This document shows positions 7,095 to 37,052 of a DNA stretch of 38,814 nt, one piece after another. Below the pieces are notes generated by a model that saw only the letters and a list, made by a program, of their open reading frames with translations, did no database searches and was not told where the DNA came from. A program made the position numbers and the translations under genes. This DNA is from Longimicrobiales bacterium (GTDB lineage: Bacteria > Gemmatimonadota > Gemmatimonadetes > Longimicrobiales > Gaopeijiaceae): the NCBI GenBank assembly GCA_028278645.1, contig JANQDZ010000030.1:1-38814 (forward strand), given 5' to 3'. The first letter of the stretch is position 1; each line of letters starts with the position of its first letter.

Positions 7095-9749
7095 GTGCAA
7101 ATGGAAAATGCGAAAAAACGAGGGGGACCGCCCCGGTTCTTTGAGTTCCTGCTCAGATGGATTCTCCCGGACGGAATCGTACGGGAGGACATCGTGGGCA
7201 GTCTGGCTGAGGAGCACAACGGCCGGGTGGCCTGGGATGGACAACGTCGCGCCGATAGCTGGTATCGGCGCCAGGTGCTTGGGATCGTGGCACGGTGGCT
7301 CCGTAAGGGTTTCGCCCGCGCCATTGGAGCATGGAGCATAGGAGATCTTGTGAAGGAACTCGCGCGGGCTGCACGACGTTTGGTGCGGGTGCCAGCGTTT
7401 TCGGCGGCCGTGGTGACGACCCTCGCGTTGGGGATCGGCGGCACCACGGCCGTCTTCGCCATTGTGTACGGCGTCCTGATTCGGCCGCTGCCCTACCCGG
7501 ATGCGGAACGCCTGACCTGGATCCGGAACGGAGCTCCCGACCGCACCTGGAGCTTCTCCATGGCCGACTACCTCGCCCTAGAGGAGCAGCAAAGCTCCTT
7601 CACCCGAGTGGGGGCTTACGATCCCAATGGCATCACCCTTTCAACGCCCGAAGGGTCCGAGCGGATGCAAGCCCACATGGTGACTGCCGGATTCATGCCC
7701 CTCCTAGGCATCCGGCCGGTGTTGGGCCGATCCATCACCGAGGAAGATACCCGGCCCGGTGCCGACCCCGTGGTGCTCGTGAGCCACCGGGTATGGCGGT
7801 CCCGCTTCGGCGGCGATCCGGGTATCGTCGGGCGCACGGTAACGCTGGATCAGGAGATCACCACGGTCGTCGGAGTTCTGCCCCCGCCAGCCGGTCCGAT
7901 CGAGCGGGACCAGGACTTCCTTCTACCGCTGACCCTCGAACCGCCCCCACGGAAAGGACCGTTTTTCCTCTACGTGGTCGGCCTGTTGGAGGAGGGGTCG
8001 ACCCGGACGGCCGCCGCCCAGGAGCTGGAGGCCATCAGCGATCGCATCTTCCCGCTCTGGCAGGACAGCTTCCCGGACGCGGAGGTCCGCTGGGTGATGT
8101 TCGACCTCAAGAAGGCGTTGCTGGGCGACGTGGGCGGATCCCTCTGGGTTGCTCTCGCCGCCGTGGGGGCCCTCCTTCTCATCGCCCTCGCCAACGCGGC
8201 GAACCTGTTGGTAGCCCGCGCCGTGGAACAGAAGCACGAAACTGCGGTTCGCGTGGCACTGGGCGCGGGATGGGGACGAATGCTCGTGCATCGACTGTCG
8301 GAGAGCATCGTCCTGGCAGGCCTCGGTGGTGGGGCGGGCTTGGGCCTGGCCTACCTAGGCCTCGCCACGGCCGTCCGCCTGGGCGGAGCCCTGATACCCC
8401 GAGTTGCGGAAGCCGCCCTATCGGGCCCGGTGGTCCTCTTTCTCTTGGCCGTGGCACTGGTGTCCGTCGCGATCCTGGGCCTGGTTCCCGCACTGCACAA
8501 CCGGACCCCCCTACCGGCATTGAGGGGGAGTGGGAGGGGTGTCGGGCACGGTGTGAAGCAGCGCGGGCTTCGCCAGGCACTCGTCGTTGCCCAGTTCTCC
8601 GTCACGGTCCCGCTCCTCGTGGGAGGCGCGCTGCTAACCTCCAGCCTCTGGTCCCTCAGGCGAGCCGATCCTGGTTTCGACGCGGACCGAGTTTTGACGC
8701 TTTCTCTTTCGCTTCCCCACACGGGCTACGAAGAGGCTGCCATTCGGCTGGATTTCTGGCAACGGGTCCTTGCCGAGGTGCGGGCCTTGCCCGGTGTGGA
8801 GGCGGCGGGGCTCGGAAACGGCCGGCCACCCGACGAACCTGGATTCGGCAACAACTTTATGCTGGAAGATGTACCCCTCCCATCTGGCGCGTCACAGTTC
8901 GAGGTGCCGTGGACCATTGCGGACCCGGCATATTTCCAGGCTCTCGGTGTGGACTTGTTGGCGGGACGCCTGTTCGATGTCGATACGGACTCGTCCCGGG
9001 TGGCCCTCGTCGACGAGACCTGGGCCCGGCGCTTTTTTGCCAACCCACAGGATGCCTTGGGACGCCGGTTCATCCACGGAGGATGTACCGATCCCACCAG
9101 GTGCCCGTGGTGGACCGTCATCGGAGTAGTGAGCGATGTGGAATACAACGGCCTTGCCGAGGACAACCAGGGCGCCATGTACCTGGACGCCGAACGTTTC
9201 GTCCAACTCGGGTCCTTCCTGGTGGTCCGGACGCCCAGCGCCGACGCGGCGGCCCTGGCGCCTCGGATCCGGGCCATCGTGCGGGATGCTGATCCCAGGG
9301 TCCCAGTGACGGACGTCGCCACGGGCCGGGAGCTCCTGGAGGAGAGCCTTCGCACCGACCGGTACCTGGCTGGTCTGGTAGGATTGTTCGGAGCGGTAGC
9401 ATTCCTTCTCTCGCTCGTCAGCATCTATGGGGTTTTGGCATACTTCGTGGAGGAACACAGGCGGGACATCGGCATCCGGTTGGCCCTTGGTGGAGAGCCC
9501 CTGCGGGTGGCCTGGATGGTCATGGCCTCTGCCATGCGACTGGTTCTTGTCGGTGTAGGGACGGGCACCGTACTGGCGCTGGGTATCTCCAGCCTACTGG
9601 ACCACTTGCTCTTCAGAATCAATCCCTGGGACCCGGTCTCCTTCGCCGCGGTGGTGCTGGGCCTGAGCGCCGCAGCTTTGCTTTCATGCGGGGAGCCGGC
9701 CTTCCGAGCCGCCAGGTTGGACCCGGCCGGCGCACTCAAGGAGAAATAG
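7095..9749 (+). CDS. Module A ADOP-type permease (duplicated MacB/FtsX domains)
   Basis: An 884-residue inner-membrane protein. Residues 10-45 form a soluble prefix (RFFEFLLRWILPDGIVREDIVGSLAEE) of the prefix-2 kind. A first transmembrane helix (about 102-128) is followed by a MacB-like periplasmic domain, three helices with a coupling motif (ETAVRVALGAG, about 380), then a second copy: helix near 497, a second periplasmic domain, and a three-helix FtsX domain from about 755 with DIGIRLALGG. This 4+4 layout defines the ADOP family (TIGR03434). No ATPase domain is fused or encoded nearby. GTG 7095 follows AAGGGA by 5 bases; ATG 7101 is an alternative. Its PadR partner follows directly, the reverse of modules B-F. 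The substrate is unknown. Confidence 0.9.
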   Translation: MQMENAKKRGGPPRFFEFLLRWILPDGIVREDIVGSLAEEHNGRVAWDGQRRADSWYRRQVLGIVARWLRKGFARAIGAWSIGDLVKELARAARRLVRVPAFSAAVVTTLALGIGGTTAVFAIVYGVLIRPLPYPDAERLTWIRNGAPDRTWSFSMADYLALEEQQSSFTRVGAYDPNGITLSTPEGSERMQAHMVTAGFMPLLGIRPVLGRSITEEDTRPGADPVVLVSHRVWRSRFGGDPGIVGRTVTLDQEITTVVGVLPPPAGPIERDQDFLLPLTLEPPPRKGPFFLYVVGLLEEGSTRTAAAQELEAISDRIFPLWQDSFPDAEVRWVMFDLKKALLGDVGGSLWVALAAVGALLLIALANAANLLVARAVEQKHETAVRVALGAGWGRMLVHRLSESIVLAGLGGGAGLGLAYLGLATAVRLGGALIPRVAEAALSGPVVLFLLAVALVSVAILGLVPALHNRTPLPALRGSGRGVGHGVKQRGLRQALVVAQFSVTVPLLVGGALLTSSLWSLRRADPGFDADRVLTLSLSLPHTGYEEAAIRLDFWQRVLAEVRALPGVEAAGLGNGRPPDEPGFGNNFMLEDVPLPSGASQFEVPWTIADPAYFQALGVDLLAGRLFDVDTDSSRVALVDETWARRFFANPQDALGRRFIHGGCTDPTRCPWWTVIGVVSDVEYNGLAEDNQGAMYLDAERFVQLGSFLVVRTPSADAAALAPRIRAIVRDADPRVPVTDVATGRELLEESLRTDRYLAGLVGLFGAVAFLLSLVSIYGVLAYFVEEHRRDIGIRLALGGEPLRVAWMVMASAMRLVLVGVGTGTVLALGISSLLDHLLFRINPWDPVSFAAVVLGLSAAALLSCGEPAFRAARLDPAGALKEK

Positions 9750-10088
9750 ATGGGCGGTCGGGCTTTTCTCGGTGAATTCGAGCAGATGGTCCTCCTGGCA
9801 GTGCTTCGGCTGGGGGACGAAGCCTTCGGCCCCGGCATCGCCGGTGAGCTGGAGGAGCGGGCCGGGCGGCAAGTATCCCGAGGAGCGCTCTACGGTACCC
9901 TCGACCGGTTAGCGCGGAAAGGCTACCTCAGATGGGAGATAGAGGCGCCAACCTCCGAATCCCGGGGAAACCGGCGGCGGCGTTTCAGCGTGACCCCGGA
10001 AGGAATCAAGGAACTGGTGTCCGCCCGAGACGCGCTCGTGAATCTCTGGGAGGGGTTGGACGGTGTCCTGCGCAGACCCACGGGGTGA
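9750..10088 (+). CDS. PadR-family regulator of module A
   Basis: A 112-residue winged-helix repressor. The N-terminus GEFEQMVLLAVLRLGDEAFGPGIAGELEE and the recognition helix region SRGALYGTLDRLARKGYLRWE, then RRRRFSVTPEGIKEL for the wing, are typical of PF03551. It differs from the other six in its GEFEQ start and in lacking the HGYGI motif. The ATG abuts the permease stop (TAG-ATG), with AAGGAG in the permease's last codons, so translation should be coupled. Short PadRs bind as dimers at palindromes and are usually relieved by a small molecule. Being downstream of its permease, it would be expressed only when the permease is. Confidence 0.9.
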   Translation: MGGRAFLGEFEQMVLLAVLRLGDEAFGPGIAGELEERAGRQVSRGALYGTLDRLARKGYLRWEIEAPTSESRGNRRRRFSVTPEGIKELVSARDALVNLWEGLDGVLRRPTG

Positions 10089-10166: not shown

Positions 10167-10209
10167 CCTGAATTGTTCAGGTTATTACCTTTGCCCTGAA
10201 TCATTCAGG
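10167..10209 (+). promoter_or_regulatory. Two-copy operator candidate of module B
   Basis: CCTGAATTGTTCAGG at 10167-10181 and CCTGAATCATTCAGG at 10195-10209 are near-perfect 15-base palindromes with consensus CCTGAAT-N-(A/T)TTCAGG, 28 bases apart start to start. They end 16 bases before the ATG of the module B PadR gene. Spacing near three helical turns suits cooperative binding of two dimers. The obvious candidate ligand is the PadR encoded just downstream (autorepression). No clear sigma-70 boxes were found. Confidence 0.6.
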
Positions 10210-10225
10210 TCAACCAGGGGCATAA

Positions 10226-10567
10226 ATGTCTTCGGTACTCGGCCCGCTCCCGGGCACGTTGGAATTCCTCATTCTCAAAACCCTCGCGACGGCCGGCGAA
10301 AGGCACGGTTTCGCAATCCTCGATTGGATTCGCGAGGCGACCGACGAGGTGCTTATCGTCGAGGACGGCGCGCTCTATCACGCGCTCCACCGCATGGTCC
10401 GCCGGGGCTGGCTCGAGGCTGATTGGGGCGTATCGGAGAAAGGCCGCCGGGCGCGGTACTACCGGCTCACCGTAGCAGGTGAGTCTGCGCTCTTGGAAGA
10501 GGAGCTCCGCTGGAACCGATACGTCGAAGCGGTGGCGAAGCTCGCGACTCGGCCGGGCGGACGCTGA
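10226..10567 (+). CDS. PadR-family regulator of module B
   Basis: A 113-residue winged-helix protein. It begins GTLEFLILKTLATAGERHGFAIL and contains VEDGALYHALHRMVRRGWLEADW and GRRARYYRLTVAGESAL, the helix-wing core of PadR. The class is that of module F (GTLxxLxL start, an acidic residue before GALY, and a KGRRARYY wing). The ATG is preceded by AGGGG at good spacing and by two 15-base operator-like palindromes, so autoregulation is likely. The permease gene starts 24 bases after the stop, with its own strong ribosome site. Confidence 0.92.
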   Translation: MSSVLGPLPGTLEFLILKTLATAGERHGFAILDWIREATDEVLIVEDGALYHALHRMVRRGWLEADWGVSEKGRRARYYRLTVAGESALLEEELRWNRYVEAVAKLATRPGGR

Positions 10568-10591: not shown

Positions 10592-13285
10592 TTGCGGAAC
10601 ACGGGTCCTTCGAGGCGGTTCTTCCGTCTGGGTCAGCGCCAGCCGCCTCTCGACGAAGCCGTGGATTGGGAGATTGAACACCACCTGGCTGAGCAGGTGG
10701 ATAGACTCGTTGAGGCGGGATGGGATCCTGGAGAGGCTCGCGCCGAAGCTGAGCGGCTCTTCGGGCATCTCGGTCGCCACAGGGACCGGATCCTGAGAAT
10801 CGACCGAAGTGAGGCAGCGATGCGGAGGCGAACGCAGGGGTTGGAGGGCGCGTTGGCAGTCGTTCGGACCAGTCTGCGCGCCATCCGTCGTCAGCCGCGG
10901 TTTGCGCTTGGCGTCGTGGTGACGCTGGCCCTAGGTATTGGGGTAAACTCAGTGATGTTCGGCGTCGTCGACCGCCTCTTGCTGCGGCCGCCGGAGCACG
11001 TTGTCGACCACGGAGACCTGCGGCGGCTCTTCGTGCGGCGGAGCTTCCTCGGCACCGTCCACACCCAGTCGATCGTCACCTATCCGGATCTCCAGGATTT
11101 GCGGACTGCCCCTGAATTCAAATCGGTGGGCGGGTACACGCCGGCCCGCGAACGCACGTTGGGCGGGGGCCCGAATGCGACGCGGGTGAGAGTTGCCCTA
11201 GCCAGCCACGACTTTTTCCCTACGCTAGGGGTCTCCGCCCACCGCGGCCGGTTCTTCGCCCCGGAGGAGGACCGCATCGGTGTGCAGGGGGCAGTAGTGC
11301 TCGGGTTCGACTTCTGGCAGAGCGCATTTGGGGGGGATCCAGGCATCCTGGGAAACGAGATCGATTTGTCGGGCTTCCGACTCCCGGTGATCGGGATCGC
11401 CCCGCCCAAATTCACTGGGGCCGAGCTCTCGGCAGTAGACGCATGGATGCCGCTCGAAGCTGGCCGTTATCTCGAGGCCGGCTCCGACCGCTTCATGCAC
11501 ACCTACGGTTCTTGGTGGTTGCGCGCAGTGGCTCGTCTGGCGCCTGGGAGCACGGAGGAAGCCGCGACCGCCCGTGCCACGGCGCTCCATCTCCACGGTC
11601 GCGCCGACCGTATTGAGCGCGGCATGTACGATCCCGAGGCACGCATGATCGCTGGCCCCCTGATCCTCGCCCGCGGCCCGGAGGCGTCGAGCGAGTCCGA
11701 TGTTGCCAGATGGCTGGCAGGTGTCTCTTTCGTCGTGCTCCTGATCGCCTGCGCCAATGTCGCAAACCTTTTTCTGGCGCGCGGAGCGCGTCGCAGGCGA
11801 GAGGTTGCGGTGAGACTCTCGCTGGGTGTGTCGGGGCGACGGCTCGTCGGCGAGAGTGTGTTCGAGGCAGCGTTGTTGGCGCTCGCCGGAGGTATGGCAG
11901 CTGTAGTCTTGGCGTTATGGGTTGGCCCGCTCATCCATGCCACGCTAATCCCCGACTTGTACTGGTCGCCTGGCCTCGACGGTCGGCTGCTGACCTTCAC
12001 CGCGCTCATTTCGGTGGGTGCGGGGCTGCTCGCCGGGTTCGGGCCCGCGATCCAGGCAACGCGTATCAATCTCGTCGACGATCTGAGGGACGGGGGGCGC
12101 GGTTCCACCGGACGCAAGTCGCGAACTCGTGGGGCCCTCTCTGCACTGCAGGCTTCGCTGAGCGTGGTACTTTTGGTCGGCGCCGGACTCTTCGTGCGGA
12201 GTGTCTCGGAGGCCCACGATGTCAACCTCGGGATCGATCCCGACCGGGTGGCTCTCGTCACCCTCGAACTGGATTCCCCGGATGCGGATGCCGAGACCAG
12301 GCTACGAGTTTACGAGGAAGCCGCTGCCCGGGCCGGGGCTATGCCGGCGGTCTCCCACGTCGCCCTCACCGACGTGCCGTTTCAATGGGCGTTGGGTCAG
12401 GCGCTTGGAGCCGAGGGGTGGGATTCTATCCCTGCCCTACCGGGCGGTGGTCCTTACTACTACCACGTTACACCCGAGTATGCGGCGACCTTAGGTCTCT
12501 CTGTGATCCGTGGGCGTGACTTCGAGCATTCCGACCAAGAGGGTGCCCCGGTTGCCATCGTGAACGCCACGATGGAGCGGGTCCTGTGGCCGGTCGACGG
12601 CGCTCTCGGCAAGTGTCTGTATCTGGGCGAGTCGAACCAGTGCACGACCATCGTAGGTGTGATGGAGGACGCCTCACGGGGTGGGATCGAAGAGGAGCTG
12701 CACATGGCGTACCTCCTGCCGCTGAGCCGCACGGATCCACCCGAGATTATGGGGCTCTACGTGCGTACCAGGGGGGATGCCGCAGAAGCGCTGTCGCCGA
12801 TGGCCCAGACGCTGCGTTCTTTCTCGCCGGACATCCGCTGGGCCGACGTGAGCACGATCCGTGAGTTGATTGAACCCCAGGTTCGCTCCTGGCAGCTGGG
12901 CGCTACCCTGTTCACCGCCTTCGGAGGCCTGGCTTTAATCGTTGCGGGCATCGGGCTATACAGCCTGCTGGCGTTCAACGTCGCGGAACGGACGAGGGAG
13001 ATCGGAATCCGTTCCGCTCTTGGTGCCCGTCGAGGGCGGATCGTACGCGAGGTGATAGCGGAGGGAGCCCGCTTCGCTGTCATCGGGATCACGGTTGGCT
13101 TCGGTGTCGCACTCATGGCCGCCCCGGCCATCACCGACCTCCTCTTCCAGGTGGAGCCCATGGATCCACCTGTGCTGTTGGCGGTGACGGTGGCGCTCCT
13201 GCTGGCCTCCCTCCTGGCCTCGATCACACCGGCCCTCAGGGCCACCCGAGTGGACCCGGCCGCCGTGATGCGCACGGACGCTTGA
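10592..13285 (+). CDS. Module B ADOP-type permease
   Basis: An 897-residue ADOP permease. The TTG start at 10592 is supported by AAAGGAGG ending 5 bases upstream. Residues 20-70 are a prefix-1 domain: DEAVDWEIEHHLAEQVDRLVEAGWDPGEAR, then AEAERLFGHLG, a cytoplasmic helical bundle also seen in module F. First transmembrane helix at about 103-130 (ALGIGVNSVMF), a MacB-type periplasmic domain, FtsX helices from about 373 with EVAVRLSLG, the second half from about 513, and final helices from about 768 with REIGIRSALGA. There is no ATPase partner. It probably moves or responds to envelope substrates by a MacB-like mechanotransmission, but no substrate can be inferred. Confidence 0.93.
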   Translation: MRNTGPSRRFFRLGQRQPPLDEAVDWEIEHHLAEQVDRLVEAGWDPGEARAEAERLFGHLGRHRDRILRIDRSEAAMRRRTQGLEGALAVVRTSLRAIRRQPRFALGVVVTLALGIGVNSVMFGVVDRLLLRPPEHVVDHGDLRRLFVRRSFLGTVHTQSIVTYPDLQDLRTAPEFKSVGGYTPARERTLGGGPNATRVRVALASHDFFPTLGVSAHRGRFFAPEEDRIGVQGAVVLGFDFWQSAFGGDPGILGNEIDLSGFRLPVIGIAPPKFTGAELSAVDAWMPLEAGRYLEAGSDRFMHTYGSWWLRAVARLAPGSTEEAATARATALHLHGRADRIERGMYDPEARMIAGPLILARGPEASSESDVARWLAGVSFVVLLIACANVANLFLARGARRRREVAVRLSLGVSGRRLVGESVFEAALLALAGGMAAVVLALWVGPLIHATLIPDLYWSPGLDGRLLTFTALISVGAGLLAGFGPAIQATRINLVDDLRDGGRGSTGRKSRTRGALSALQASLSVVLLVGAGLFVRSVSEAHDVNLGIDPDRVALVTLELDSPDADAETRLRVYEEAAARAGAMPAVSHVALTDVPFQWALGQALGAEGWDSIPALPGGGPYYYHVTPEYAATLGLSVIRGRDFEHSDQEGAPVAIVNATMERVLWPVDGALGKCLYLGESNQCTTIVGVMEDASRGGIEEELHMAYLLPLSRTDPPEIMGLYVRTRGDAAEALSPMAQTLRSFSPDIRWADVSTIRELIEPQVRSWQLGATLFTAFGGLALIVAGIGLYSLLAFNVAERTREIGIRSALGARRGRIVREVIAEGARFAVIGITVGFGVALMAAPAITDLLFQVEPMDPPVLLAVTVALLLASLLASITPALRATRVDPAAVMRTDA

Positions 13286-14669: not shown

Positions 14670-15008
14670 GTGAATCAGACTAACGCTGAAACATTCCTAC
14701 CACTGAAACCGGCAGTGCTACACCTGCTACTTGCGCTCTCTCACGGTGAGGCCCACGGCTACGGCCTGATGCGGCGAATTCGTGAGGACTCTGGGGGGCA
14801 CGTGGATCTCAAAACCGGGCCTTTCTACCGGCACCTGAAAAGGCTTCTCGACATCGGGGCGGTTACCGAGGTCCAGAGGCCGGATGGTGTCGATGTACGT
14901 CGCGGCGCCCATTTCGCGTTGACGCCCCTGGGCCGTCAGATGCTGGCTGCTGAAAGGCGGCGGCTGGCCGAGTTGCTCGGGCTGTCAGCAAAGGCTAGGA
15001 CAACCTAA
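14670..15008 (+). CDS. PadR-family regulator of module C
   Basis: A 112-residue PadR repressor. The frame is open far upstream, but the GTG at 14670 follows GGGGGCGA and lies 39 bases after a good -10 box, so it is the likely start. LPLKPAVLHLLLALSHGEAHGYGLMRRIRE is the N-terminal helix pair with the HGYG motif; LKTGPFYRHLKRLLDIGAVTEV is the recognition-helix region; and HFALTPLGRQML is the wing. It belongs to the same class as the PadRs of modules D, E and G (LxP start, HGxxI). The permease GTG follows after one base, so the two are coupled. Confidence 0.9.
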   Translation: MNQTNAETFLPLKPAVLHLLLALSHGEAHGYGLMRRIREDSGGHVDLKTGPFYRHLKRLLDIGAVTEVQRPDGVDVRRGAHFALTPLGRQMLAAERRRLAELLGLSAKARTT

Positions 15009-15009: not shown

Positions 15010-17778
15010 GTGACCAGGTGGCTGATCTTCACTCTTCTCCGGGCATATCCGCCGGCGTTCCGACAGCAGTTCGGAGTGGGTATGCAATATGGGCTAGAGG
15101 AAGAGCACGCGGCAGCTCGTCTCCGAGGCCCGTTCGCTTTGGCCTTCTTTTGGTTGTCCACGACCTTGAGCCTCGTTCCTGATGGCATCCGTGAACGTTC
15201 CGCAGCTAGCCGCCGCAGGCAGGGTCCGCGCGCGGCCCCTTTCAAAGAAGGGACTCAGGATTCGGGAGGGATGGAGATGATCGGAGCGACCTTGCGAGAC
15301 TTTCGGTTCGCGACACGCAGATTGGCTAAGCGGCCTGGATTCTCGTTGGCAGGGATCGCCACGCTCGGGCTCGGGATGGGCGCAACCACCGCGATCTTCG
15401 GCTTACTGCACACGGTGATCCTGCACCCCCTCGATTACTTTGAGCCCGAACGGTTGATATGGATCGCACATGAGAGCAACCAAAGTAGCCTGGGCGTCCC
15501 GACCGGCGCCTACCTAGAATATAAAGAGCGTTCGAATACGGTCACGGACCTGGCGATCTATACTGAAGCCACAACGACAATTCAAATAGCTGGAGAGCCG
15601 CTTGAGGTCGGTGTAATCCGTGCGACGAATAATCTCTTCGACGTCCTCGGTTCGTATCCAGCCAAGGGCCGGACCTTCACTCCTGACGATGCAGTAGAAG
15701 GAGCTACCCCGGTCGCGGTTATTAGTCACGGCTTTTGGCAGCGTGCGCACGGAGGCCGTCCTGACATTGTCGGACGGCCCGTCGTCAGTGGCTCCACCGC
15801 CACCGTTGTCGGCGTGATGCCTGAAACGTTCGCCTTTGTCAGGCCTACTGCCTCCGTCGTCTTTGGGAACACCTTCAAAACACCCGACCTCTTCCTCCCC
15901 ACCCGGATTCGTGAGGACAACGCGCGGGTTGGAAACTTCATGTATCAGGGGATCGGCAGACTGACCAAAGGGGCGACGGTTGGTGGAGCGAACACCGAGC
16001 TTCATCACCTCATGCGAGATGCCGCGGATCGGTACTCGCCTACAGGAGGTGGTCATTCGCGAGAGAGTCTTGACGCCGGACACTACCGCCCTGTAGTCGC
16101 TACCCTCAAAGACGCAGTGGTAGGAGAGATCGGTGAGGTGCTCTGGATCGTGATGGGCACGGTGATGTTCGTACTCCTCATTGCAGCGTCGAATGTTGCT
16201 AGCCTCTTCGTGCTGCGTGCGGAATCGATGCAACAGGAACTCGCCGTCCGCACAGCGCTGGGCGCGTCCCGACGGGCGGTGGCTCGCTGGTTTATTGCCG
16301 AGGGGATTACAGTTTCCTCTCTTGGGGGCCTTCTCGGCATCGGGATCGCGGTATTCGGTACCCGAGCCGTGCTCGCGCTAGCACCTTCGGACCTCCCTCG
16401 CACTGATGGTCTTGTGATGGGTCCCACGGTCTTCGGCTTCGCCCTGGCTCTCTCTCTTTTGATTGGCGTGCTCTTCGGCATCGGACCTGTCCTCCGGTCA
16501 CGTGGCGATCCCGTGTCGTCCGTCGCCCTCCGAAACGCCCGGACCACGAGCGAGGGGGTAGCCCGACGCCGCGGACGTGAAGTTCTGGTGGCTGGCCAGG
16601 TGGCGTTCGCCCTTGTGTTGCTTATCGGCTCGGGACTCCTGGTTCGGACCTACGTAAGCCTTCGTGCCGTCGATCCGGGTTTCGGCGCATCGGACATAAT
16701 CACCTTCAAGCTGGCCCTCGATGGGGATCAGTTCTCAGGCGAGCTGAATCGGGCGCAGTTCATGGTCAACGTTGCCAATCGGGTGGAGCAGCTCCCCGGC
16801 GTTACGATGGCGGGGTTCTCGGCGGACTTGCCGATGGACGGGAACGAACGGGTCGACGCGATCGTCACAGCCGAGGACTTCGAGACCGAACTGGGCGGTG
16901 CCGCGCGGACTCTACGCGTCTTCGCGGGAGCATCATATCTTACGGCACTGGGAGCCGAGATTCTGGAAGGGCGCGACCTTGAGTCGCTGGATTTCGCAGA
17001 CTTCCCTCGGGTCGCGCTCGTGAACGAAACGTTCGCCCGGACCCGGTGGCCCGGGGAGAGCGCCGTAGGCCGCCGGATAGCGCAGCGGAAGGATGGGCTC
17101 ACCCTTGAGGAGGACGTCTGGTACACGGTCGTGGGTGTCGTCGGGGACCTCCGGGAGCGGTCGCTGATCCTTGAACCCGAACCGGTGGTCTATCTGCCCA
17201 CCGTTTTTCTGCCTGGATCCGACTACGCAATGTTCGTGACTGCACAAACGCTGCTCGTGAAGGCATCCGCCCCACAGCCGGACGTCATCCAACAGGTTCG
17301 CGACGAGGTCCGCGCAATTGACCCCGGGATTCTGGTCGATGACATCCGTTCCCTCGACCGCGTTGTCGCCGCATCTATGCAACAGGTGACGTTCGCGATG
17401 GTGCTTGTACTCTTGTCCGCAGGGGTGGCGCTGGCTTTGGGTATCATAGGGATCTATGGCGCTGTAGCGTATACGGTGGGGAGACGCACTAAGGAATTCG
17501 GTGTACGGATCGCTCTCGGAGCGACAGCGGCGGATGTGCGCAATCTGGTACTCCGACAAGGAGGCGCCATAGGGATCATGGGGATCGTACCCGGCCTCGT
17601 CGGTGCCGTGTTGGCCACGCAGGTGCTCAGCTCCCTGCTGTTCGGAGTGTCCACACTTGATGTCTCAACCTATCTATGCGTCGCCGCCTCACTAATGGCC
17701 TTTGTGCTGGCGGCCGGGTGGGTGCCGGCCCACCGGGCAACCCGCGTCGATCCTGTCGCAGCACTGTCTGCGGAGTAG
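15010..17778 (+). CDS. Module C ADOP-type permease
   Basis: A 922-residue ADOP permease, the longest of the seven. The GTG start lies one base after the PadR stop. The N-terminus (residues 1-70) is the third prefix kind, LLRAYPPAFRQQFGVGMQYGLEEE, followed by an amphipathic or membrane-grazing stretch FALAFFWLSTTLSLVPDGIR; modules D, E and G share this plan. First transmembrane helix about 112-140 (LGLGMGATTAIFGL), FtsX helices from about 377 with ELAVRTALGAS, the second half from about 524, and the final FtsX block from about 794 with EFGVRIALGAT. No nucleotide-binding domain is present. Function is inferred only from the family. Confidence 0.93.
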   Translation: MTRWLIFTLLRAYPPAFRQQFGVGMQYGLEEEHAAARLRGPFALAFFWLSTTLSLVPDGIRERSAASRRRQGPRAAPFKEGTQDSGGMEMIGATLRDFRFATRRLAKRPGFSLAGIATLGLGMGATTAIFGLLHTVILHPLDYFEPERLIWIAHESNQSSLGVPTGAYLEYKERSNTVTDLAIYTEATTTIQIAGEPLEVGVIRATNNLFDVLGSYPAKGRTFTPDDAVEGATPVAVISHGFWQRAHGGRPDIVGRPVVSGSTATVVGVMPETFAFVRPTASVVFGNTFKTPDLFLPTRIREDNARVGNFMYQGIGRLTKGATVGGANTELHHLMRDAADRYSPTGGGHSRESLDAGHYRPVVATLKDAVVGEIGEVLWIVMGTVMFVLLIAASNVASLFVLRAESMQQELAVRTALGASRRAVARWFIAEGITVSSLGGLLGIGIAVFGTRAVLALAPSDLPRTDGLVMGPTVFGFALALSLLIGVLFGIGPVLRSRGDPVSSVALRNARTTSEGVARRRGREVLVAGQVAFALVLLIGSGLLVRTYVSLRAVDPGFGASDIITFKLALDGDQFSGELNRAQFMVNVANRVEQLPGVTMAGFSADLPMDGNERVDAIVTAEDFETELGGAARTLRVFAGASYLTALGAEILEGRDLESLDFADFPRVALVNETFARTRWPGESAVGRRIAQRKDGLTLEEDVWYTVVGVVGDLRERSLILEPEPVVYLPTVFLPGSDYAMFVTAQTLLVKASAPQPDVIQQVRDEVRAIDPGILVDDIRSLDRVVAASMQQVTFAMVLVLLSAGVALALGIIGIYGAVAYTVGRRTKEFGVRIALGATAADVRNLVLRQGGAIGIMGIVPGLVGAVLATQVLSSLLFGVSTLDVSTYLCVAASLMAFVLAAGWVPAHRATRVDPVAALSAE

Positions 17779-18063: not shown

Positions 18064-18105
18064 CTATTTAGGTCACTTGACACTGTCATGTGACCTAAAT
18101 AGAAT
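18064..18105 (+). promoter_or_regulatory. Promoter embedded in a 39-bp near-perfect palindrome (module D)
   Basis: Arms CTATTTAGGTCAC (18064-18076) and GTGACCTAAATAG (18090-18102) are exact reverse complements. Between them TGACA-C-TGTCA continues the symmetry, with one T-T mismatch, so 39 bases are symmetric about 18083. The center contains a consensus -35 box TTGACA (18077-18082). A -10 box TAGAAT lies at 18100-18105 after exactly 17 bases. A dimer on this site would cover the whole promoter, a design for tight repression, probably by the PadR encoded 70 bases downstream. Confidence 0.8.
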
Positions 18106-26159: not shown

Positions 26160-26521
26160 GAGCTGTTCCGGCGGGAGGTTGAAAGCCCCGCTGCGTATGC
26201 GAGGTCCAAATCCGTTTCCAACCGCTCAAGTTCGGCTAGGAGCACCGTTCGCCCCAACGAAGTCAGTTCGTAAAAACGCCACCGGTTGGTCGCCTCTCCG
26301 GGGGTTTCTCGGCCGGCAGTTTCGGCGACGAGTCCGGAGTGGTTCAACCTCTGGATTGCCGCATAGAGTGTACCGGCTCCGAGGCGCAAGATCCCTCCAG
26401 TTCGTTCCTCTACTTCGCGTTTTATGCCGTAGCCGTGTTTAACCCCCCGGTGGAGGCTTAGGAGGATGTGGAAGGTGACCGGGGTCAGGGGTATGAACCG
26501 CTCGGGTTGGAACTCGGGCAT
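26156..26521 (-). CDS. PadR-family regulator of module E
   Basis: A 121-residue PadR repressor from ATG 26521, which has GAGG six bases upstream; an in-frame GTG at 26533 lacks a ribosome site. The core reads IPLTPVTFHILLSLHRGVKHGYGIKREVEE, then LGAGTLYAAIQRLNHSGLVAET and RWRFYELTSLGRTVLL, the class shared with modules C, D and G. The gene overlaps its permease by 4 bp. Two overlapping palindromes cover the presumed transcription start just upstream, so it very likely represses its own operon. Confidence 0.92.
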   Translation of the reverse strand: MPEFQPERFIPLTPVTFHILLSLHRGVKHGYGIKREVEERTGGILRLGAGTLYAAIQRLNHSGLVAETAGRETPGEATNRWRFYELTSLGRTVLLAELERLETDLDLAYAAGLSTSRRNSS

Positions 26522-26533
26522 GTTTGGCCTCAC

Positions 26534-26877
26534 ATTATCGACGGTCGATTATCGATGGTCGATAATATAGTCTGCTAGGCGCCTGGCGGAAAGGACTGAC
26601 AGGTGCTGATTGGTGTGGATCGGGAGCCCGGCTGAGGGGAGAATGGGCCTCTCATCCTTCCTCACCTCCTCAACCCTTCTCACGGGCTTCGCTGCGCTTG
26701 TTTCCGAACCACAGCATCGGCCGCATCGAGAAGCTCTATCTGACTTTGACCGAGATTCCGCAAGGCCCGCCCGACAGGAGATTGGATCGCGAGACGACCG
26801 AGGAAGGCTGGACCCTTGGAGTGGGGCGCGGGGTGATCGGATGGACCTCCTTGACAGGGAGGGGACGAAGGGGAGGG
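26534..26877. other. Divergent gap between module E and the IS3 relic
   Basis: Apart from the module E operators at its left edge I see no gene. The stretch 26698-26877 is in frame with the transposase relic that follows, but its sequence does not resemble transposase. Confidence 0.3.
26535..26569 (-). promoter_or_regulatory. Operator pair and -10 box of module E
   Basis: TTATCGA-N3-TCGATAA occurs as a perfect palindrome at 26549-26565 and, with one mismatch, at 26535-26551, the two offset by exactly 14 bases and sharing three. On the minus strand a -10-like TATATT (26569-26564) overlaps the upstream edge, so the operators sit over the transcription start and leader. The -35 region is poor (TTTCCG at 17 bases). 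Confidence 0.65.
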
Positions 26878-27458: not shown

Positions 27459-27506
27459 TACCCCTAATTGAAGTACCCCTCATTGAATTAGGGTAACCAA
27501 TATTGG
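27459..27506 (+). promoter_or_regulatory. Operator candidate of module F
   Basis: TACCCCTAATTGAA (27459-27472) is repeated as TACCCCTCATTGAA (27474-27487) with a 15-base period and one mismatch. It is followed by AATTAGGGTA (27486-27495), an inverted near-copy of the first half. A separate perfect 10-base palindrome, CCAATATTGG, lies at 27497-27506. The block ends about 40 bases before the PadR start and is the likely site of autoregulation. Confidence 0.5.
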
Positions 27507-27547
27507 TGCGCTTCGACAGCCGAGACTGCTCTAGGGAGACACACACA

Positions 27548-27880
27548 ATGGCAGGCAGCAACCTTTTCACAGGGACCCTGGACCTCCTGATGCTTCAAGC
27601 TATCAAGAACGGGCCCAAGCACGGGTATGGCATTGGAAAGTGGCTTGCCGAGCGGACCGAAGGAGAGGTGGACCCGGATGAAGGTGCTCTTTACTCCTCA
27701 CTTCATCGTCTGGAAAGGAAACGCCAGATCGAGGGGGATTGGGGGGAGACCGAGAATGGGCGCAGGGCTCGTTTCTATTCTCTCACGAGTAAGGGGCGAA
27801 AGACGCTTGGAAAGGAGGTGACCCGCTGGGAGCGGCACGCCAGGGCCGTATTCGCTGTCCTGCGTCACGAGGAGCAGTGA
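27548..27880 (+). CDS. PadR-family regulator of module F
   Basis: A 110-residue PadR repressor starting at ATG 27548 (GGGAGA about 10 bases upstream). The frame extends 15 codons upstream, but only this start gives a normal PadR N-terminus: LFTGTLDLLMLQAIKNGPKHGYGIGKWLAE. The recognition region is DEGALYSSLHRLERKRQIEGDW and the wing is GRRARFYSLTSKGRKTL. It is closest in pattern to the module B PadR (GTLxxLxL, GALYxxLHR, GRRARxYxLT), and its permease likewise has a prefix-1 domain. The permease ATG follows 4 bases after the stop. Confidence 0.92.
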   Translation: MAGSNLFTGTLDLLMLQAIKNGPKHGYGIGKWLAERTEGEVDPDEGALYSSLHRLERKRQIEGDWGETENGRRARFYSLTSKGRKTLGKEVTRWERHARAVFAVLRHEEQ

Positions 27881-27884: not shown

Positions 27885-30593
27885 ATGAAGCGGATCTTCA
27901 GGGCCCGGGATTTTCAACCTCATGCTGATCAGGATCTCTCTGAAGAACTCCAAGCCCACCTGGAGCTCAAGGTAGACGACCTGGTCAAACAGGGAATCCC
28001 CGAGGAGGAAGCGAGGGAGGTGGCTCGCCGCTCCATGGAACGAGGGCAAGGGGCGCACGCCACAGCCGCGCCTCATGCCCGCACCAACCTGCGGCGCAGG
28101 CTCTTGCTCGGTGGCGTTGAAGACTTTGTTCTAGACCTACGGCTAACACTCCGAACCTTCAGAAAATCCCCTGGATTCTGGGCGGTCTCGGTGCTTTCCC
28201 TGGCGGTAGGCATCGGGGTGAACTCCGCTGTGTTTACGGCGATCCACGGCGTGTGGTTTGCCCCCGTACCCGGCATGGTTGACCAACACAGACTCGTGGA
28301 TATGGTGCCCGTGACCGACGGACGGGACCATTGGCAGTGGGCTTTTCCAGACTTTGAAGTCGTGAGAGATACCGAAACCCCTCTGATGGCCATCTCAGCC
28401 TGGGCAGAGGGGTACGCCACAATCGGGGAGGAGACGACGCGGAGTGAGCGGGCCTTGGTGGGTTATGTCACTTCAGACTACTTCCTCGTTCATGGAGCCC
28501 AACCCTCGCTTGGCCGCGGGTTTTCCGCATCTGACGATGAGATCGCTGGAGAGAACCGGGTGGCAATTCTGAGCCATCGGATGTGGAAAGACCGATTTGA
28601 TGGTCTGCCGGGGGTCCTGGGGGAGTTCCTGGTCATAGACGGAAACGCCTACACCGTGGTTGGGGTGGCTCCGGAGGGGTTCCGTGGAGCAAGGGTCAAC
28701 CTATGGAGCCTCGACCTGTGGCTACCGTTGTCCGAGCATCCAGAAGCAACCAATGACGGATCTCCTTTTCACAACAGGACTGAGTCCACGGTCCAGGTGC
28801 TTGGACGCCTTCGTGAGGATGCTACAGTTTCGGGGGCCCAGGCGGCCCTTCGGACTGTGTTCGCCAACCTGGAGCGGGACTTCCCAGAATCCAATGAAGG
28901 GAGAACGGTAAAGGCGGTCCGATTCGGGAGGTTCCCAGCCCAGAATCGGGACCTGGATGCTTTCGCTGTGGTCGGGGTCTGTGGGCTTTTCACAATCCTT
29001 TTGCTCATCATCTGTGGGAATCTGGCTGGTATGGCTATGGCCAGGGCCATAACCCGCGAGAGGGAGCTCGGTGTGAGACTCGCTCTTGGCGCGAGCCGAT
29101 CCCGCTTGATGCGGCTCCTGATGTTGGAGGCCGGAGTTCTTTCCGTCGTTGGTGGAGCGGTTGGAGTGATCCTTTCTGTCTTGGTCATGTCTCGCGTATC
29201 CCCGATGGACCTCAATATCACGGCCCCCGGGGCTGCCTTCGAGCCCAGCGGATGGATGTTGGTCCTGTCTTTGGCCCTCTCTTTCGTCGCGGCCATGGCT
29301 TTTGGGCTCCTTCCCGCCGTGCGCTTTAGTCGTCCAGAGCTGATGTCGGCCCTGAAAGACGATAGCGGTGCCGGCGGCTGGCGCGTCGGGAGATTCCAGC
29401 GTTATGCCTCAAGCCTACAGACCGGGGCGGCCTTCCTCCTTCTCCTCCTAGGTGTCCTGTTTTTCCGATCGTTGACCACCCTCAACGAAGAAGAGATCGG
29501 TTTTCAACCCGACGGGGCGATTGTCGCGGACTTCGGGACCGGAGGGCCGTTCCTGAGTTTTCTTGACCCGTCGGAACAAGGCTTCCCGAGTCCGGCGGAG
29601 GGTGGGTACACCTTGGTGGACCGCTTGATTGAGAACCTCGGCTCAGTGCCCGGGGTTTCGGCTGTTGCTCTTTCCAACGGGTTTCCGCTGGACCGGTCGG
29701 GAGCTTACCTCTCGGTGCGGCCCTCGGGCCAAGCGGGCACTGATTCGGTGGGCGTCATGGTTGAGTGGACCCGCGCCACGGAGGGGTACTTCTCCGTCAT
29801 CGGCTCTCCGATACTCCAGGGGAGGGGAATACTCCGCTCCGACGATTTGGACTCCTCCCCGATCGCCGTAGTTAGCCGGTCATTCGCGGATCGGCTCTGG
29901 CCTGGGCTAGACCCACTAGGCCAACAATTCACCCAGGTCGGCGGCGATGGCCAGCGCCCATGGACTGTCGTCGGTGTGATAGGTGCGACTGCAGCAAGCC
30001 GAGCCACAGAGGACCTCCCACAGGTTTATCTATCTCTGATGCAGTCGACCCGCCCCGTGTTCGCGATCGTCCTCCGATCGGAGTCGGACCCCAGCGCTTT
30101 GGTCGCGCCGATACGTGAGGCGGTATGGTCGGTTGATCCCTCCTTGCCGGCCCCAAGAGTGATGCCGGTAAGAACGGTGGTTGGTTGGGCCACTCAAACT
30201 CAGACCTCTGGCGTCCAGCTGGCAGGTGGCCTCGGCCTGATTGTGCTTCTCCTTGCGTCGATTGGTATCTACGGGGTGGTGGGACAGACGGTGGCCGCAA
30301 GGACCAGGGAGATAGGGGTGCGAATCGCAATGGGAGCCTCCTGCGGTGCAGTCGTCCGGGGGGTGGTGCTAGACGCCTACCGCACGGTTGGACCCGGGAT
30401 GTTCTTTGGCGGCATCCTGGCCGCCGCCACCGTCGGCGTGCTCCGGTCAACGTTCCTCGGATTGAGCCCGGTCGATGTGCCCTCCTTCGTCTCCGCGACC
30501 GGCCTGGTTTTAACGGTCGTGGCCTTGGCGAGTCTCGGGCCCGCCCTCAAAGGGGCCCGGATCATGCCCATGGATGCTCTGAGGAACGAATGA
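27885..30593 (+). CDS. Module F ADOP-type permease
   Basis: A 902-residue ADOP permease. ATG 27885 lies 4 bases after the PadR stop, with GAGGAG inside the PadR end. Residues 15-55 form a prefix-1 domain (QDLSEELQAHLELKVDDLVK, then QGIPEEEAREVARRS), as in module B. First transmembrane helix about 99-125 (LAVGIGVNSAVFTAI), a periplasmic MacB-like domain, FtsX helices from about 362 with ELGVRLALGAS, the second half from about 510 (FLLLLLGVLFFRSLT), and the final block from about 778 with EIGVRIAMGAS. No ATPase. A serine hydrolase gene follows 260 bases later on the same strand, separated by a hairpin. Confidence 0.93.
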   Translation: MKRIFRARDFQPHADQDLSEELQAHLELKVDDLVKQGIPEEEAREVARRSMERGQGAHATAAPHARTNLRRRLLLGGVEDFVLDLRLTLRTFRKSPGFWAVSVLSLAVGIGVNSAVFTAIHGVWFAPVPGMVDQHRLVDMVPVTDGRDHWQWAFPDFEVVRDTETPLMAISAWAEGYATIGEETTRSERALVGYVTSDYFLVHGAQPSLGRGFSASDDEIAGENRVAILSHRMWKDRFDGLPGVLGEFLVIDGNAYTVVGVAPEGFRGARVNLWSLDLWLPLSEHPEATNDGSPFHNRTESTVQVLGRLREDATVSGAQAALRTVFANLERDFPESNEGRTVKAVRFGRFPAQNRDLDAFAVVGVCGLFTILLLIICGNLAGMAMARAITRERELGVRLALGASRSRLMRLLMLEAGVLSVVGGAVGVILSVLVMSRVSPMDLNITAPGAAFEPSGWMLVLSLALSFVAAMAFGLLPAVRFSRPELMSALKDDSGAGGWRVGRFQRYASSLQTGAAFLLLLLGVLFFRSLTTLNEEEIGFQPDGAIVADFGTGGPFLSFLDPSEQGFPSPAEGGYTLVDRLIENLGSVPGVSAVALSNGFPLDRSGAYLSVRPSGQAGTDSVGVMVEWTRATEGYFSVIGSPILQGRGILRSDDLDSSPIAVVSRSFADRLWPGLDPLGQQFTQVGGDGQRPWTVVGVIGATAASRATEDLPQVYLSLMQSTRPVFAIVLRSESDPSALVAPIREAVWSVDPSLPAPRVMPVRTVVGWATQTQTSGVQLAGGLGLIVLLLASIGIYGVVGQTVAARTREIGVRIAMGASCGAVVRGVVLDAYRTVGPGMFFGGILAAATVGVLRSTFLGLSPVDVPSFVSATGLVLTVVALASLGPALKGARIMPMDALRNE

Positions 30594-30659: not shown

Positions 30660-30852
30660 CGGCCGGTCTTCGGTCGTCGATCGGATCGGGAGAACCGGGG
30701 ATAGACGGGGACGGATTGTGAATCCCCAAGTGTCCAACCTGAGGAGACCACCCTTTGGTGGGCAGAGGCGGACGAACGAACCATCGAAGTTCTGGACCAG
30801 ACGGCCGTCCTCTTGGCTGGTCCGGTACAAACCAAAGAACGGGCTATTCAGC

Positions 30853-33882: not shown

Positions 33883-33933
33883 GTGGTTTTGGAAGCTTGG
33901 GCGATCCTCAAATCCGGGACTCTTTCTGGCCCC

Positions 33934-34272
33934 TCACCCTAGGTTTTTAGCCAACGCAGCCGCCACGTACTTCGACAACCGGGCTGCCTCAGCGGCGAGG
34001 GCGGCACGACCACTTGACGTAATCCGGTAGTACCGAGGCTGGCCTCCGCCGGATTCCGAGTCGGACGGAGGATCAGTCTCGCGAATCAGACCTTCTTCCA
34101 CCAAGTGTTTTAGCGACCCGTAGAGGACCCCCGGCCAGAGGTGGATTTCCCCGTCCGTCCGCTGACTGACCTCTTCCATGATTCTCAGGCCATGGAGGTC
34201 CTGATCAGCCAAAGAAAGCAGGATGTGAAAGAAACGGGGCTTGAGCCCATTTCGTTTGAACTCCTTCACCAT
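33934..34272 (-). CDS. PadR-family regulator of module G
   Basis: A 112-residue PadR repressor. NGLKPRFFHILLSLADQDLHGLRIMEEVSQ, then LWPGVLYGSLKHLVEEGLIRET and QPRYYRITSSGRAALAAE are the helix and wing of the family; the class is that of modules C, D and E (LxP start, FHILLSL), although HGYG is HGLR here. The ATG follows GGAG at 11-12 bases. It lies 74 bases downstream of its permease, opposite to the usual order. The gap includes an AT-rich segment, so it may also have its own promoter. Confidence 0.9.
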   Translation of the reverse strand: MVKEFKRNGLKPRFFHILLSLADQDLHGLRIMEEVSQRTDGEIHLWPGVLYGSLKHLVEEGLIRETDPPSDSESGGGQPRYYRITSSGRAALAAEAARLSKYVAAALAKNLG

Positions 34273-34346
34273 TGGGTCATGCTCCGGTCACCCCCGAACA
34301 AGGGTTTCTCAAAAAGACACCATACAAACCGTTGGAAAACCGTCCG

Positions 34347-37052
34347 TTACTCTCGACGAAGAACTTCCGACGGGTCCGACCGTGCCGCTAGCCGCGCAGG
34401 AAAGAAGGCCGACAAGTTAGCGACGGCCGCAACAAGGAATACTGAGCCAGCGAACACAACCGGATCCAGGGTATTTCGGAAATATAAGAGGCTCTTCACG
34501 AGCTGGCTAAGACCCAATGCAACCGCAAACCCTAACAGGAGACCGCCTCCGGCTGCCTTCGACTCCGAGAATACTATCTGTGTGGTTGCTCGGACGACTC
34601 CGGCACCCAGAGCAATCCGTACCCCAACCTCCGGAATTCTCTGGGCAACCGAGAACCCAACCACCCCATGGACGCCGACACAGAGAAGAAGAACACACAC
34701 TAACCCGAATAGCCCAACAGTGACTGCGCCAAGGCGGGCTGGAAGGAGCGAGAAGGCCAGATGCTCCTCCATGGTCTTCAAGTCATAGAGCGGCATCCCG
34801 GGAGCTAGAGCCTCGGTTTCGTTTCGAACAAGGGCGATGAGCGAGGTTGGATCTGAGTTGCTGAAAACGTGGAGGGTCATCGCTCCACTAGGTATAGAAC
34901 CCCACGGGAAATAGATGAATGGCCGAATCGTCTCTCCAAGTGACACGTATTTTCCGTCGGGCACAACCCCGACGATGTTCCACTCTCTTCCCCCCTCAGA
35001 GAAGGTCTTTCCGACAGCTGACTCGTTTGGCCAGAACCGCTCCACAAAGCACTGATTGACGATCGCGGCCACCGACCCAGGATCCTCGTCGGCGGCCTGA
35101 AATCCCCGCCCAGAGGTGACGGGAATACCCATCGATGAGAAATAGCCGGAGTTGACGATGTTGTACCGGACATTCATCGATTCTTCGGGACTCGGAAGAT
35201 AGCCCGGGACCTCAACTAGCCGTTGTGCGCCGTCGATGCCCAAAGGGACATACCTAGCCATTCCTACCGACCGAACTCCTGGCAGGTTTTCGATTCTCTG
35301 GCTGAGGGACACAAAAAGCTCTTCCGTCTCCGAAGGGCTGAAGCCTTGGAGCCCGGGATCAAGGGTGGCCAGGAAGAGGCCGTCGGACCGGAAACCGGTG
35401 TCGATCTCAAGGGCACTCTTCAGGTTCTTTGCGAACAGCCCTGAAAGCACCAAGAGCACCGTGGATAGCGCGACTTGGACGAATACGAGAAGACGCCCTT
35501 TCCAAAACCCCTTTCCCAGTCTTGAGGAGGCCCCCCCCTTCAGGGTGGTCATTAGATCCAATCTCTGAATCCGCACAGACGGAGCCAACCCGAAAACCAG
35601 GCCGGCAAGTAGGGTGAGACAGGAAGTGAATACCAAGGTCGGCCAGTCGAGTGAGAAACTCCAGTTCAGTGTCCACTGGATCGGAAGGCGGATCCGGTTT
35701 AGTCCTGCCAAGCCATACCGGGCTATGAGGACGCCCACACCTCCCGCAGCGAGAGCGAGGAACGCACTTTCCATGAGGAGTAGGTTCCTAAGCCTGGCCG
35801 GTGAAGCACCAAGGCCCCTCCGGAGGGCAAGCTCTTTCCTGCGGCTTTGCGCTTTGGCAAGGAAGAGGCCACTCACGTTCACGCTGGCCATTAGAAGAAG
35901 GAGAGCTACTACAACAATCAAGACTCCGCTCAGTCCGACCTGGGTATCCCGGACGGCCGGATGGAGGCCCGCCCGTTTCTGCGGAATCAAACTGAGTCCG
36001 ATACCTTTATGGGCTTCCGGGTATTCTTCCGCAAGGCGAGCCGCGAATTCCCGGAGCCACTCCTGAGCCGCACCCGGTTCGAGTCCGGGTTTGAGTCTGG
36101 CCACCAAGTCCAGAAAGTGGTTCTCTCTGTATTGTGATAGATCGTCGCTTCTCATTAGCTTCGGATGGTGGGATAGGGGTGCCCAGAGGGCGGGAGCCAG
36201 GATGGGCATGAGCCCTCGGAACTCTCCAGCGGCTACCCCGATGATCTCCCACTTCGAGCCATTGATGTCTAGCGTCCTCCCGATTACCCTCGGATCTCCG
36301 CCTAGCTGATTGCGCCAGAATCCCTCACTCACCACGACCAGCTGCTCTTGGGGGCCGAGTTCTGGGCCTTGGCTCGAGAATCCGCGGCCCAGAACCATCG
36401 GAACACCCAGAACCTCGAAAAACCGTGAGGAGACTATCTGGCCGAGCACCCGCTCCGCCCTGTCTCCGGTTCCGACACTCAGTTCGGAATAGGTCCAACC
36501 GGAAACGCCTGAGAAGGGATCGGCCGTGCTCGCGAGGTCCTGAAAGAGCGGCAGGGAACTGGGAAGAAACTCAGCACCCATACCCCGTGATCGACAAATA
36601 AGAGACAGCTCTTCAGGTTCCGTCACCCCGGGTAGGGGTCGAAGCAGAAGAGAGTAGACGCCCCCGAAGACAACCGTGTTTAGTCCAATCCCGAGGGCCA
36701 GCGTACCCACAACAGCGAAGGTGAACCCTGGGTTCCGGGCCAGGTGCCTCGCTGCAGATCGCCCGTCCTCTCTCATGCTCCTGAAAAATGGACGTTGACC
36801 GCGGGGTTTCCGGTTCGATCCTTGCCTTCTGCGGCGGAGCATAGATGCCCTTTGCCGAAGTCCTTGCCAGACGGAATCCGCCAAAATGAAGAACCAGACA
36901 CCGAGGAACCCCCTCCTACCACTCTTCTGTCCGGCTCTCCGGATTGAGGCGAGGAAGGCAACCTCCATTTCACCCCCGTATATCTTCCTGAACGGCGTGG
37001 GAAAGAGAAGAAGAACCATCCGGTAGAAGCGCCGAGACACAGGAAAATCCAT
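34347..37052 (-). CDS. Module G ADOP-type permease
   Basis: A 901-residue ADOP permease. The prefix is of the third kind (FYRMVLLLFPTPFRKIYGGEMEVAF), followed by a hydrophobic segment FLGVWFFILADSVWQGL and a basic linker (MLRRRRQGSNRKPRGQR). First transmembrane helix about 110-135 (LALGIGLNTVVFGGV), periplasmic domain, FtsX helices from about 372 with ELALRRGLGAS, the second half from about 517, and the last block from about 770 with EVGVRIALGAG. The frame is intact and no ATPase is linked. Transcription probably starts at the promoter at 37087-37115, divergent from the beta-barrel gene. Confidence 0.93.
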   Translation of the reverse strand: MDFPVSRRFYRMVLLLFPTPFRKIYGGEMEVAFLASIRRAGQKSGRRGFLGVWFFILADSVWQGLRQRASMLRRRRQGSNRKPRGQRPFFRSMREDGRSAARHLARNPGFTFAVVGTLALGIGLNTVVFGGVYSLLLRPLPGVTEPEELSLICRSRGMGAEFLPSSLPLFQDLASTADPFSGVSGWTYSELSVGTGDRAERVLGQIVSSRFFEVLGVPMVLGRGFSSQGPELGPQEQLVVVSEGFWRNQLGGDPRVIGRTLDINGSKWEIIGVAAGEFRGLMPILAPALWAPLSHHPKLMRSDDLSQYRENHFLDLVARLKPGLEPGAAQEWLREFAARLAEEYPEAHKGIGLSLIPQKRAGLHPAVRDTQVGLSGVLIVVVALLLLMASVNVSGLFLAKAQSRRKELALRRGLGASPARLRNLLLMESAFLALAAGGVGVLIARYGLAGLNRIRLPIQWTLNWSFSLDWPTLVFTSCLTLLAGLVFGLAPSVRIQRLDLMTTLKGGASSRLGKGFWKGRLLVFVQVALSTVLLVLSGLFAKNLKSALEIDTGFRSDGLFLATLDPGLQGFSPSETEELFVSLSQRIENLPGVRSVGMARYVPLGIDGAQRLVEVPGYLPSPEESMNVRYNIVNSGYFSSMGIPVTSGRGFQAADEDPGSVAAIVNQCFVERFWPNESAVGKTFSEGGREWNIVGVVPDGKYVSLGETIRPFIYFPWGSIPSGAMTLHVFSNSDPTSLIALVRNETEALAPGMPLYDLKTMEEHLAFSLLPARLGAVTVGLFGLVCVLLLCVGVHGVVGFSVAQRIPEVGVRIALGAGVVRATTQIVFSESKAAGGGLLLGFAVALGLSQLVKSLLYFRNTLDPVVFAGSVFLVAAVANLSAFFPARLAARSDPSEVLRRE

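Follow-up and report, generated by a model that had tools for sequence, protein, structure and literature searches.

MacB-type permeases can serve as the sensor for a regulator, as in BceAB-BceRS (PMC5985334), where BceAB, probably two MacB units fused into one, acts as sensor for a regulator of its own with which it has co-evolved. That system encodes its ATPase alongside the permease and employs a histidine kinase/response regulator pair, with no PadR protein and no prefix. In MacB, the ATPase is part of the cytoplasmic N-terminus, and TM2 and TM3 enclose the major coupling helix that links to it (PMC5985334). A second arrangement was put forward by Ravi et al. 2024 (PMC11237479), the available text of which proposes the HAAS-PadR dyad, a cytoplasmic helical domain on a membrane protein beside a stand-alone PadR, as an alternative to two-component systems and names HAAS fusions to FtsX/MacB_PCD proteins. 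In LftR/LftS of Listeria, the one HAAS-PadR pair with a genetic study that was found, repression of lieAB by LftR does not depend on the presence of LftS, and the effect of LftS was termed LftR-independent by the authors (PMC4517056). The acidobacterial duplicated orphan permeases (ADOPs; TIGR03434) are a large paralogous family with a duplicated MacB_PCD/FtsX layout and no ATPase neighbour, and are among the most expanded protein families in some Gemmatimonadota and Acidobacteriota. The TIGR03434 model is silent on the prefix classes, PadR pairing and cassette exchange that were seen here.

The window, the whole stretch of 38,814 nucleotides that was analysed, comes from a draft genome of 4.91 Mb (G000) in the Gemmatimonadota, in which it forms contig C31. 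A first-pass annotation had described seven intact permease frames with the duplicated MacB/FtsX layout, each with its own PadR gene, and all were found in place (Table 1). Each permease carries two MacB_PCD (PF12704) and two FtsX (PF02687) stretches, and all seven scored above the curated cut-off of the TIGR03434 model (622.3 bits; observed, 633.6–859.6 bits), with the same layout as the described family. A stand-alone PadR gene (PF03551), a trait of the HAAS-PadR dyad, lies next to every window permease, upstream in five cases and downstream in two (7095 and 34347), with spacings in modules 1–7 of 0 bp, 24 bp, 1 bp, a 4-bp overlap, a second 4-bp overlap, 4 bp, and 74 bp. The other window permeases share 28–32% identity with the 23442 protein and are therefore old paralogs, as had been proposed, and not recent tandem copies. 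Two genes for beta-lactamase-family serine hydrolases (PF00144) also adjoin the ADOP modules (30718–31995, + strand; 37911–38813, + strand, open end).

Table 1. Permease, PadR and putative operator features in the window (positions are those of the whole stretch).
Feature	Position	Strand	Evidence
ADOP permease 1, 884 aa, prefix p2 (about 7128-7289)	7095..9749	+	TIGR03434 740.6 bits; NF038404 prefix 30.1 bits
PadR of permease 1, subfamily B, downstream of permease	9750..10088	+	PF03551 36.4 bits; clusters with PadRs of p2 permeases
Putative operator, inverted repeats CCTGAATTGTTCAGG (10167-10181) and CCCTGAATCATTCAGGTCA (10194-10212), before PadR 10226	10167..10212	+	0/40 shuffles as good
PadR of permease 2, subfamily A	10226..10567	+	PF03551 60.5 bits; PadR clustering
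ADOP permease 2, 897 aa, prefix p1, HAAS-like (about 10640-10777)	10592..13285	+	TIGR03434 670.0 bits; NF038403 31.3 bits
PadR of permease 3, subfamily C, start approximate	14670..15008	+	PF03551 43.0 bits at 14724-14948
ADOP permease 3, 922 aa, prefix p3 (about 15010-15195)	15010..17778	+	TIGR03434 730.8 bits
Putative operator upstream of PadR of permease 4, 13-bp arms CTATTTAGGTCAC...GTGACCTAAATAG	18064..18102	+	By eye from sequence
PadR of permease 4, subfamily C, start approximate, overlapping permease start	18176..18529	+	PF03551 57.1 bits
ADOP permease 4, 886 aa, prefix p3 (about 18526-18735)	18526..21186	+	TIGR03434 773.4 bits
ADOP permease 5, 905 aa, prefix p3 (about 25935-26159)	23442..26159	-	TIGR03434 859.6 bits
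PadR of permease 5, subfamily C	26156..26533	-	PF03551 53.3 bits
Putative operator ATTATCGACCATCGATAATCGACCGTCGATAAT, arms ATTATCGA / TCGATAAT, directly upstream of PadR of permease 5	26534..26566	-	Inverted-repeat test and sequence
Putative operator CCCTAATTGAA...TTGAATTAGGG upstream of PadR of permease 6	27462..27493	+	Inverted-repeat test and sequence
PadR of permease 6, subfamily A	27503..27880	+	PF03551 68.7 bits
ADOP permease 6, 902 aa, prefix p1, HAAS-like (about 27900-28037)	27885..30593	+	TIGR03434 633.6 bits; NF038403 41.3 bits
PadR of permease 7, subfamily C, downstream of permease	33934..34272	-	PF03551 54.2 bits; PadR clustering
ADOP permease 7, 901 aa, prefix p3 (about 36843-37052)	34347..37052	-	TIGR03434 703.4 bits

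A view of the 30-kb cluster as a special battery did not hold, as ADOPs reach the same density elsewhere in the genome and the cluster is typical of it. By protein search, about 87 full-length ADOPs (after merging) were found over many contigs, including 15 on the 75-kb contig C86, together with 74 PadR genes (PF03551). For a scan of genome contigs, an alignment of the seven permeases offered no sufficiently conserved stretch, and a single protein returned one distant locus. The description of the permeases as orphans was borne out, with one of the 47 ABC ATPase domains in the genome lying within 5 kb of any ADOP and none in the window. Among relatives of the same genus, the closest counterparts of the 23442 protein are 37–39% identical to it, a distance at which synonymous sites are saturated for dN/dS. 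The window permeases retain 29–35 of 35 near-invariant columns and practically none of the full-length ADOPs in the genome are broken, a pattern that fits selection. Clear remnants of modules are few in this genome; one is a truncated PadR resembling class C (C86, 70766–70948; positions 1767–1949 of locus L116), which adjoins an ADOP fragment of 137 aa. ADOPs above the TIGR03434 cut-off occurred in 52 of 101 surveyed Gemmatimonadota genomes, all at least 90% complete.

The informative part of the modules, which the earlier reading missed, is the prefix, defined as the N-terminal 60–90 residues (~70) before the first transmembrane helix (TM1), with the permease core running from TM1 onward. By homology to MacB the prefix is predicted to be cytoplasmic. 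Its co-occurrence with PadR was followed in three genomes: G000, a complete genome from another genus of the same family (G006), and Gemmatirosa kalamazoonensis (G099), from another family of the same class and placed in the Gemmatimonadota by NCBI. Pooled, a prefix was present in all 156 PadR-linked ADOPs and an own PadR in none of the 64 prefix-less ADOPs (G000: 62/62 and 0/19, Fisher 6.6e-19; G006: 45/45 and 0/5; Gemmatirosa: 49/49 and 0/40, among 104 ADOPs examined). One prefix-less ADOP of G006 is followed by a PadR gene that is part of the next operon, and two more PadR-linked copies in Gemmatirosa appear frameshifted at the start. In G000, five prefix-bearing ADOPs have no visible PadR, three of them at contig ends and two placed in tandem after one of those three; in Gemmatirosa, 13 ADOPs with prefix class p1 lack a neighbouring PadR, six of them as the second gene after a PadR-linked p1 ADOP and seven as real exceptions. 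Across the three genomes, the rule that a PadR implies a prefix thus has no clear exception, and the rule that a prefix implies a PadR has seven. Loci from further genomes of the phylum also obey the rule, with one prefix-less gene followed by a PadR that was taken to belong to the next operon. A prefix-less ADOP of G000 (C46:24066–26873, L039) has an open frame that continues upstream without a stop into RelE/ParE-like sequence, either as a fusion or as a chance in-frame neighbour.

The prefixes fell into four classes (p1–p4) and the PadR proteins into four subfamilies, and class and subfamily matched in 155 of the 156 modules. The match was complete in G000 (62/62; 17.9 expected), and with HMMs trained on G000 alone it was 44/45 in G006 and 49/49 in Gemmatirosa. 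Without labels, clusters of the G000 prefixes and PadRs agreed with an ARI of 0.87, compared to a shuffle maximum of 0.14. In the window, the neighbouring PadRs at 9750 (subfamily B) and 10226 (subfamily A) each fit the prefix class of their own permease. Class p1 corresponds to the NCBIfam permease prefix domain 1 and p2 to permease prefix domain 2; p3 (YP-x-x-FR-x-x-YG-x-EM) and p4 (LVP-x-x-RR-x-x-W-x-x-EW-x-x-EL) matched no Pfam or NCBIfam model, and p4, chosen by eye from the prefixes, equals one PadR cluster of exactly five. Against the Pfam HAAS models (PF22564/DUF1700/DUF1048), one divergent p1 member scored 33.9 bits and another 16.5 (gathering score 27), and the remaining p1 members tested had no HAAS match but 57–68 bits to NF038403; no HAAS match was found for p2, p3 or p4. 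With hhalign, p2 and p3 were distantly related (E 1.7e-4, 63 columns) and p3 and p4 matched weakly, but no relation of p1 to any of the other three was found, and a single HAAS superfamily for all prefixes was rejected. The p1 modules, being HAAS-like, resemble the HAAS-PadR dyad in the available text of PMC11237479, and such a dyad has already been published for this class, whereas the sequences of p2, p3 and p4 are not those of HAAS and each of these classes has its own PadR subfamily. Of the four PadR-prefix pairs, two or three are without a described role, and a search of open-licence papers returned nothing on p2–p4, class matching or swapping.

Among the p1 permeases of G000, three form a tandem array (C5:2–7940, L043) that joins C46_47554 (C46:47554–50082, L040) and C4_12440 in a divergent clade (support 100) with a MAFAI-like first transmembrane motif in place of LALGIG; a gene of this kind stands at the end of each of contigs C5 and C46, which may perhaps carry one array split by the contig ends.

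A maximum-likelihood tree of 86 cores, on which 'none' was included as a prefix state, required 50 changes of prefix class compared to a mean of 50.5 for shuffled labels and a minimum of 4, with the well-supported branches alone forcing 4 to 10 changes per class. As the prefix class is random on the core tree, PadR and prefix move between cores as one cassette across the gene boundary. PadR distance was uncorrelated with core distance (Mantel r 0.004) and correlated with prefix distance when the core was held constant (Mantel r 0.787); within classes the PadR-prefix correlation was present for p1 and p2 and absent for p3 (r 0.06). The core tree and the Mantel tests rule out common descent of whole operons as the source of the match, and prefix and PadR are inherited as a pair, independently of the permease core. 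Well-supported sister pairs of different state include 18526 (p3) with C64_41736 (p1), 34347 (p3) with C1_32931 (no prefix), and 27885 (p1) with C67_98492 (no prefix). Of 21 pairs of reciprocal best cores from G000 and G006, 16 had the same class (4.6 expected, p 1.7e-7), so likely orthologs retain the cassette while old paralogs differ. The pairs of different class are fully homologous from TM1 onward and show no homology before it; the breakpoint of exchange lies between the prefix and the first transmembrane helix. Exchange of cassettes from permease to permease is not described in the available text of PMC11237479. The families are known and the pattern, matched and exchangeable PadR-prefix cassettes, is new and well-supported.

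An ordinary autoregulated transporter could be imagined to leave a similar trace, with the PadR alone sensing a cytoplasmic drug-like ligand and repressing the permease, the prefix acting as an assembly or ATPase-recruiting tail, and co-variation arising only from adjacency on the DNA and from recombination breaks that favour the conserved TM1 segment. Linkage is indeed tight, as in most modules no more than a few bases separate the PadR stop from the point where the permease begins; the conserved TM1 is a plausible site for homologous recombination; and PadR proteins are able to bind ligands directly. That LftR works without LftS (PMC4517056) is in keeping with such a transporter, and repression irrespective of LftS also counts against both the HAAS-PadR dyad and the proposed docking of PadR on the prefix. 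Six PadRs, however, are separated from the prefix by the 2.3-kb core (those of 7095 and 34347 in the window, that of C86_1948, two in G006, and one in Gemmatirosa) and all still fit the prefix class, which weakens hitch-hiking by adjacency. The absence of an own PadR from prefix-less ADOPs in three genomes, and the 155/156 class match despite about 50 class changes on the core tree, likewise speak against a ligand-sensing PadR with an unrelated tail, and this explanation is considered unlikely. The match of the downstream PadRs argues instead that function is favoured, most simply contact between prefix and PadR.

Upstream of the PadR genes, an inverted repeat reached by dinucleotide shuffles in ≤5% of cases was found in 18 of 59 regions (3 expected), in agreement with the separate control of the modules that had been suggested. 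The repeat at 18064–18102, which overlaps a promoter-like TTGACA-N17-TAGAAT, was cut by the region used for the shuffle test and was found by eye. The arms vary from operon to operon and no single dyad accounts for any class; one common operator per class was therefore rejected, and the repeats appear private. Autoregulation is usual for PadR proteins, and operon-specific arms fit putative private operators at which each PadR would act on its own operon.

The swapped but matched pairs suggest that the prefix is how the permease talks to its PadR. Under the preferred reading, the N-terminal cytoplasmic prefix would connect the duplicated, MacB-type permease of each module to the PadR repressor of the same module, for which it would be the docking tail; the PadR in turn would bind a private inverted repeat and repress the operon to which it belongs. 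A ligand or envelope stress at the periplasmic MacB-like domains, or a permease cycle driven by an ATPase in trans, would change the state of the prefix, and the PadR would leave the DNA (or be allowed onto it) such that the permease is made when needed. The probability of this docking reading is put at roughly 0.6. Counting against it are the seven p1-bearing Gemmatirosa ADOPs without a PadR in the operon, the uncorrelated p3 prefix and PadR distances, and the poor prediction of the prefix by AlphaFold2, in which most prefix residues had a pLDDT of 30–50 and the segment was not resolved.

The AlphaFold2 model, made with the seven window proteins, had a mean pLDDT of 67 and a recognisable fold that matched MacB, YbbAP, LolCDE, and BceAB. 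In MacB, YbbAP and BceAB, which ADOPs match in sequence and fold, the N-terminus is cytoplasmic, and the ADOP prefix occupies the position of the MacB ATPase. ADOPs share the fold and the coupling-helix segments of the type VII ABC transporters MacB and YbbAP but lack an ATPase domain or an ATPase neighbour. The most conserved 20-residue stretch of 136 cores (802–821, numbered as in the 23442 protein) aligns with the part of MacB that follows TM2, and its first-half equivalent ranks third in conservation. It is conceivable that ADOPs have lost transport and are ATPase-free receptors whose sole output is the PadR, which would then control genes elsewhere; the absence of an ATPase gene nearby and the prefix in the place of the MacB ATPase agree with such a pure sensor. 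Yet both segments that correspond to the MacB coupling helix rank among the best-conserved stretches of the 136 cores, and 19 ADOPs of G000 have neither prefix nor PadR, indicating a use of the core of its own, and a purely sensory role is held to be very improbable. The conserved coupling-helix region argues for work with an ATPase rather than pure sensing, and in this it also counts against the docking reading; it suggests that ADOPs still cooperate with an ATPase supplied in trans.

In function, the docking of PadR on the prefix would make ADOP-PadR modules resemble BceAB-BceRS, with direct contact between permease and PadR replacing the two-component system: both would sense for an own regulator and co-evolve with it, while the window ADOPs have no adjoining NBD gene and a PadR in place of the kinase and response regulator. 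Exchange of a PadR-prefix cassette would provide a new switch for an old permease and render some 90 permeases separately controllable. More broadly, the four PadR-prefix pairs may act as interchangeable cassettes across the gene boundary, swapped among 50 to 120 permeases per genome to give each a separate switch without a two-component system, a proposal that the evidence tips slightly in favour of. This suggests a possible alternative to two-component signalling that evolves by exchange of a piece of DNA spanning two genes. The cassette offers a handle on ADOP function, as it yields a prediction of the permease segment that meets each regulator, and regulation, signals and substrates become testable.

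The ADOP complement of Gemmatirosa kalamazoonensis is about 117, with 61 on two megaplasmids (C3 and C4; NZ_CP007129.1 and NZ_CP007130.1), and consists for the most part of p1 or prefix-less permeases. On contig C30 of G000 (L106, 2022–3163), a PadR adjoins a 279-aa non-ADOP protein with a weak match to the p1 prefix (16 bits), and the PadR-prefix cassette may serve other membrane proteins too.
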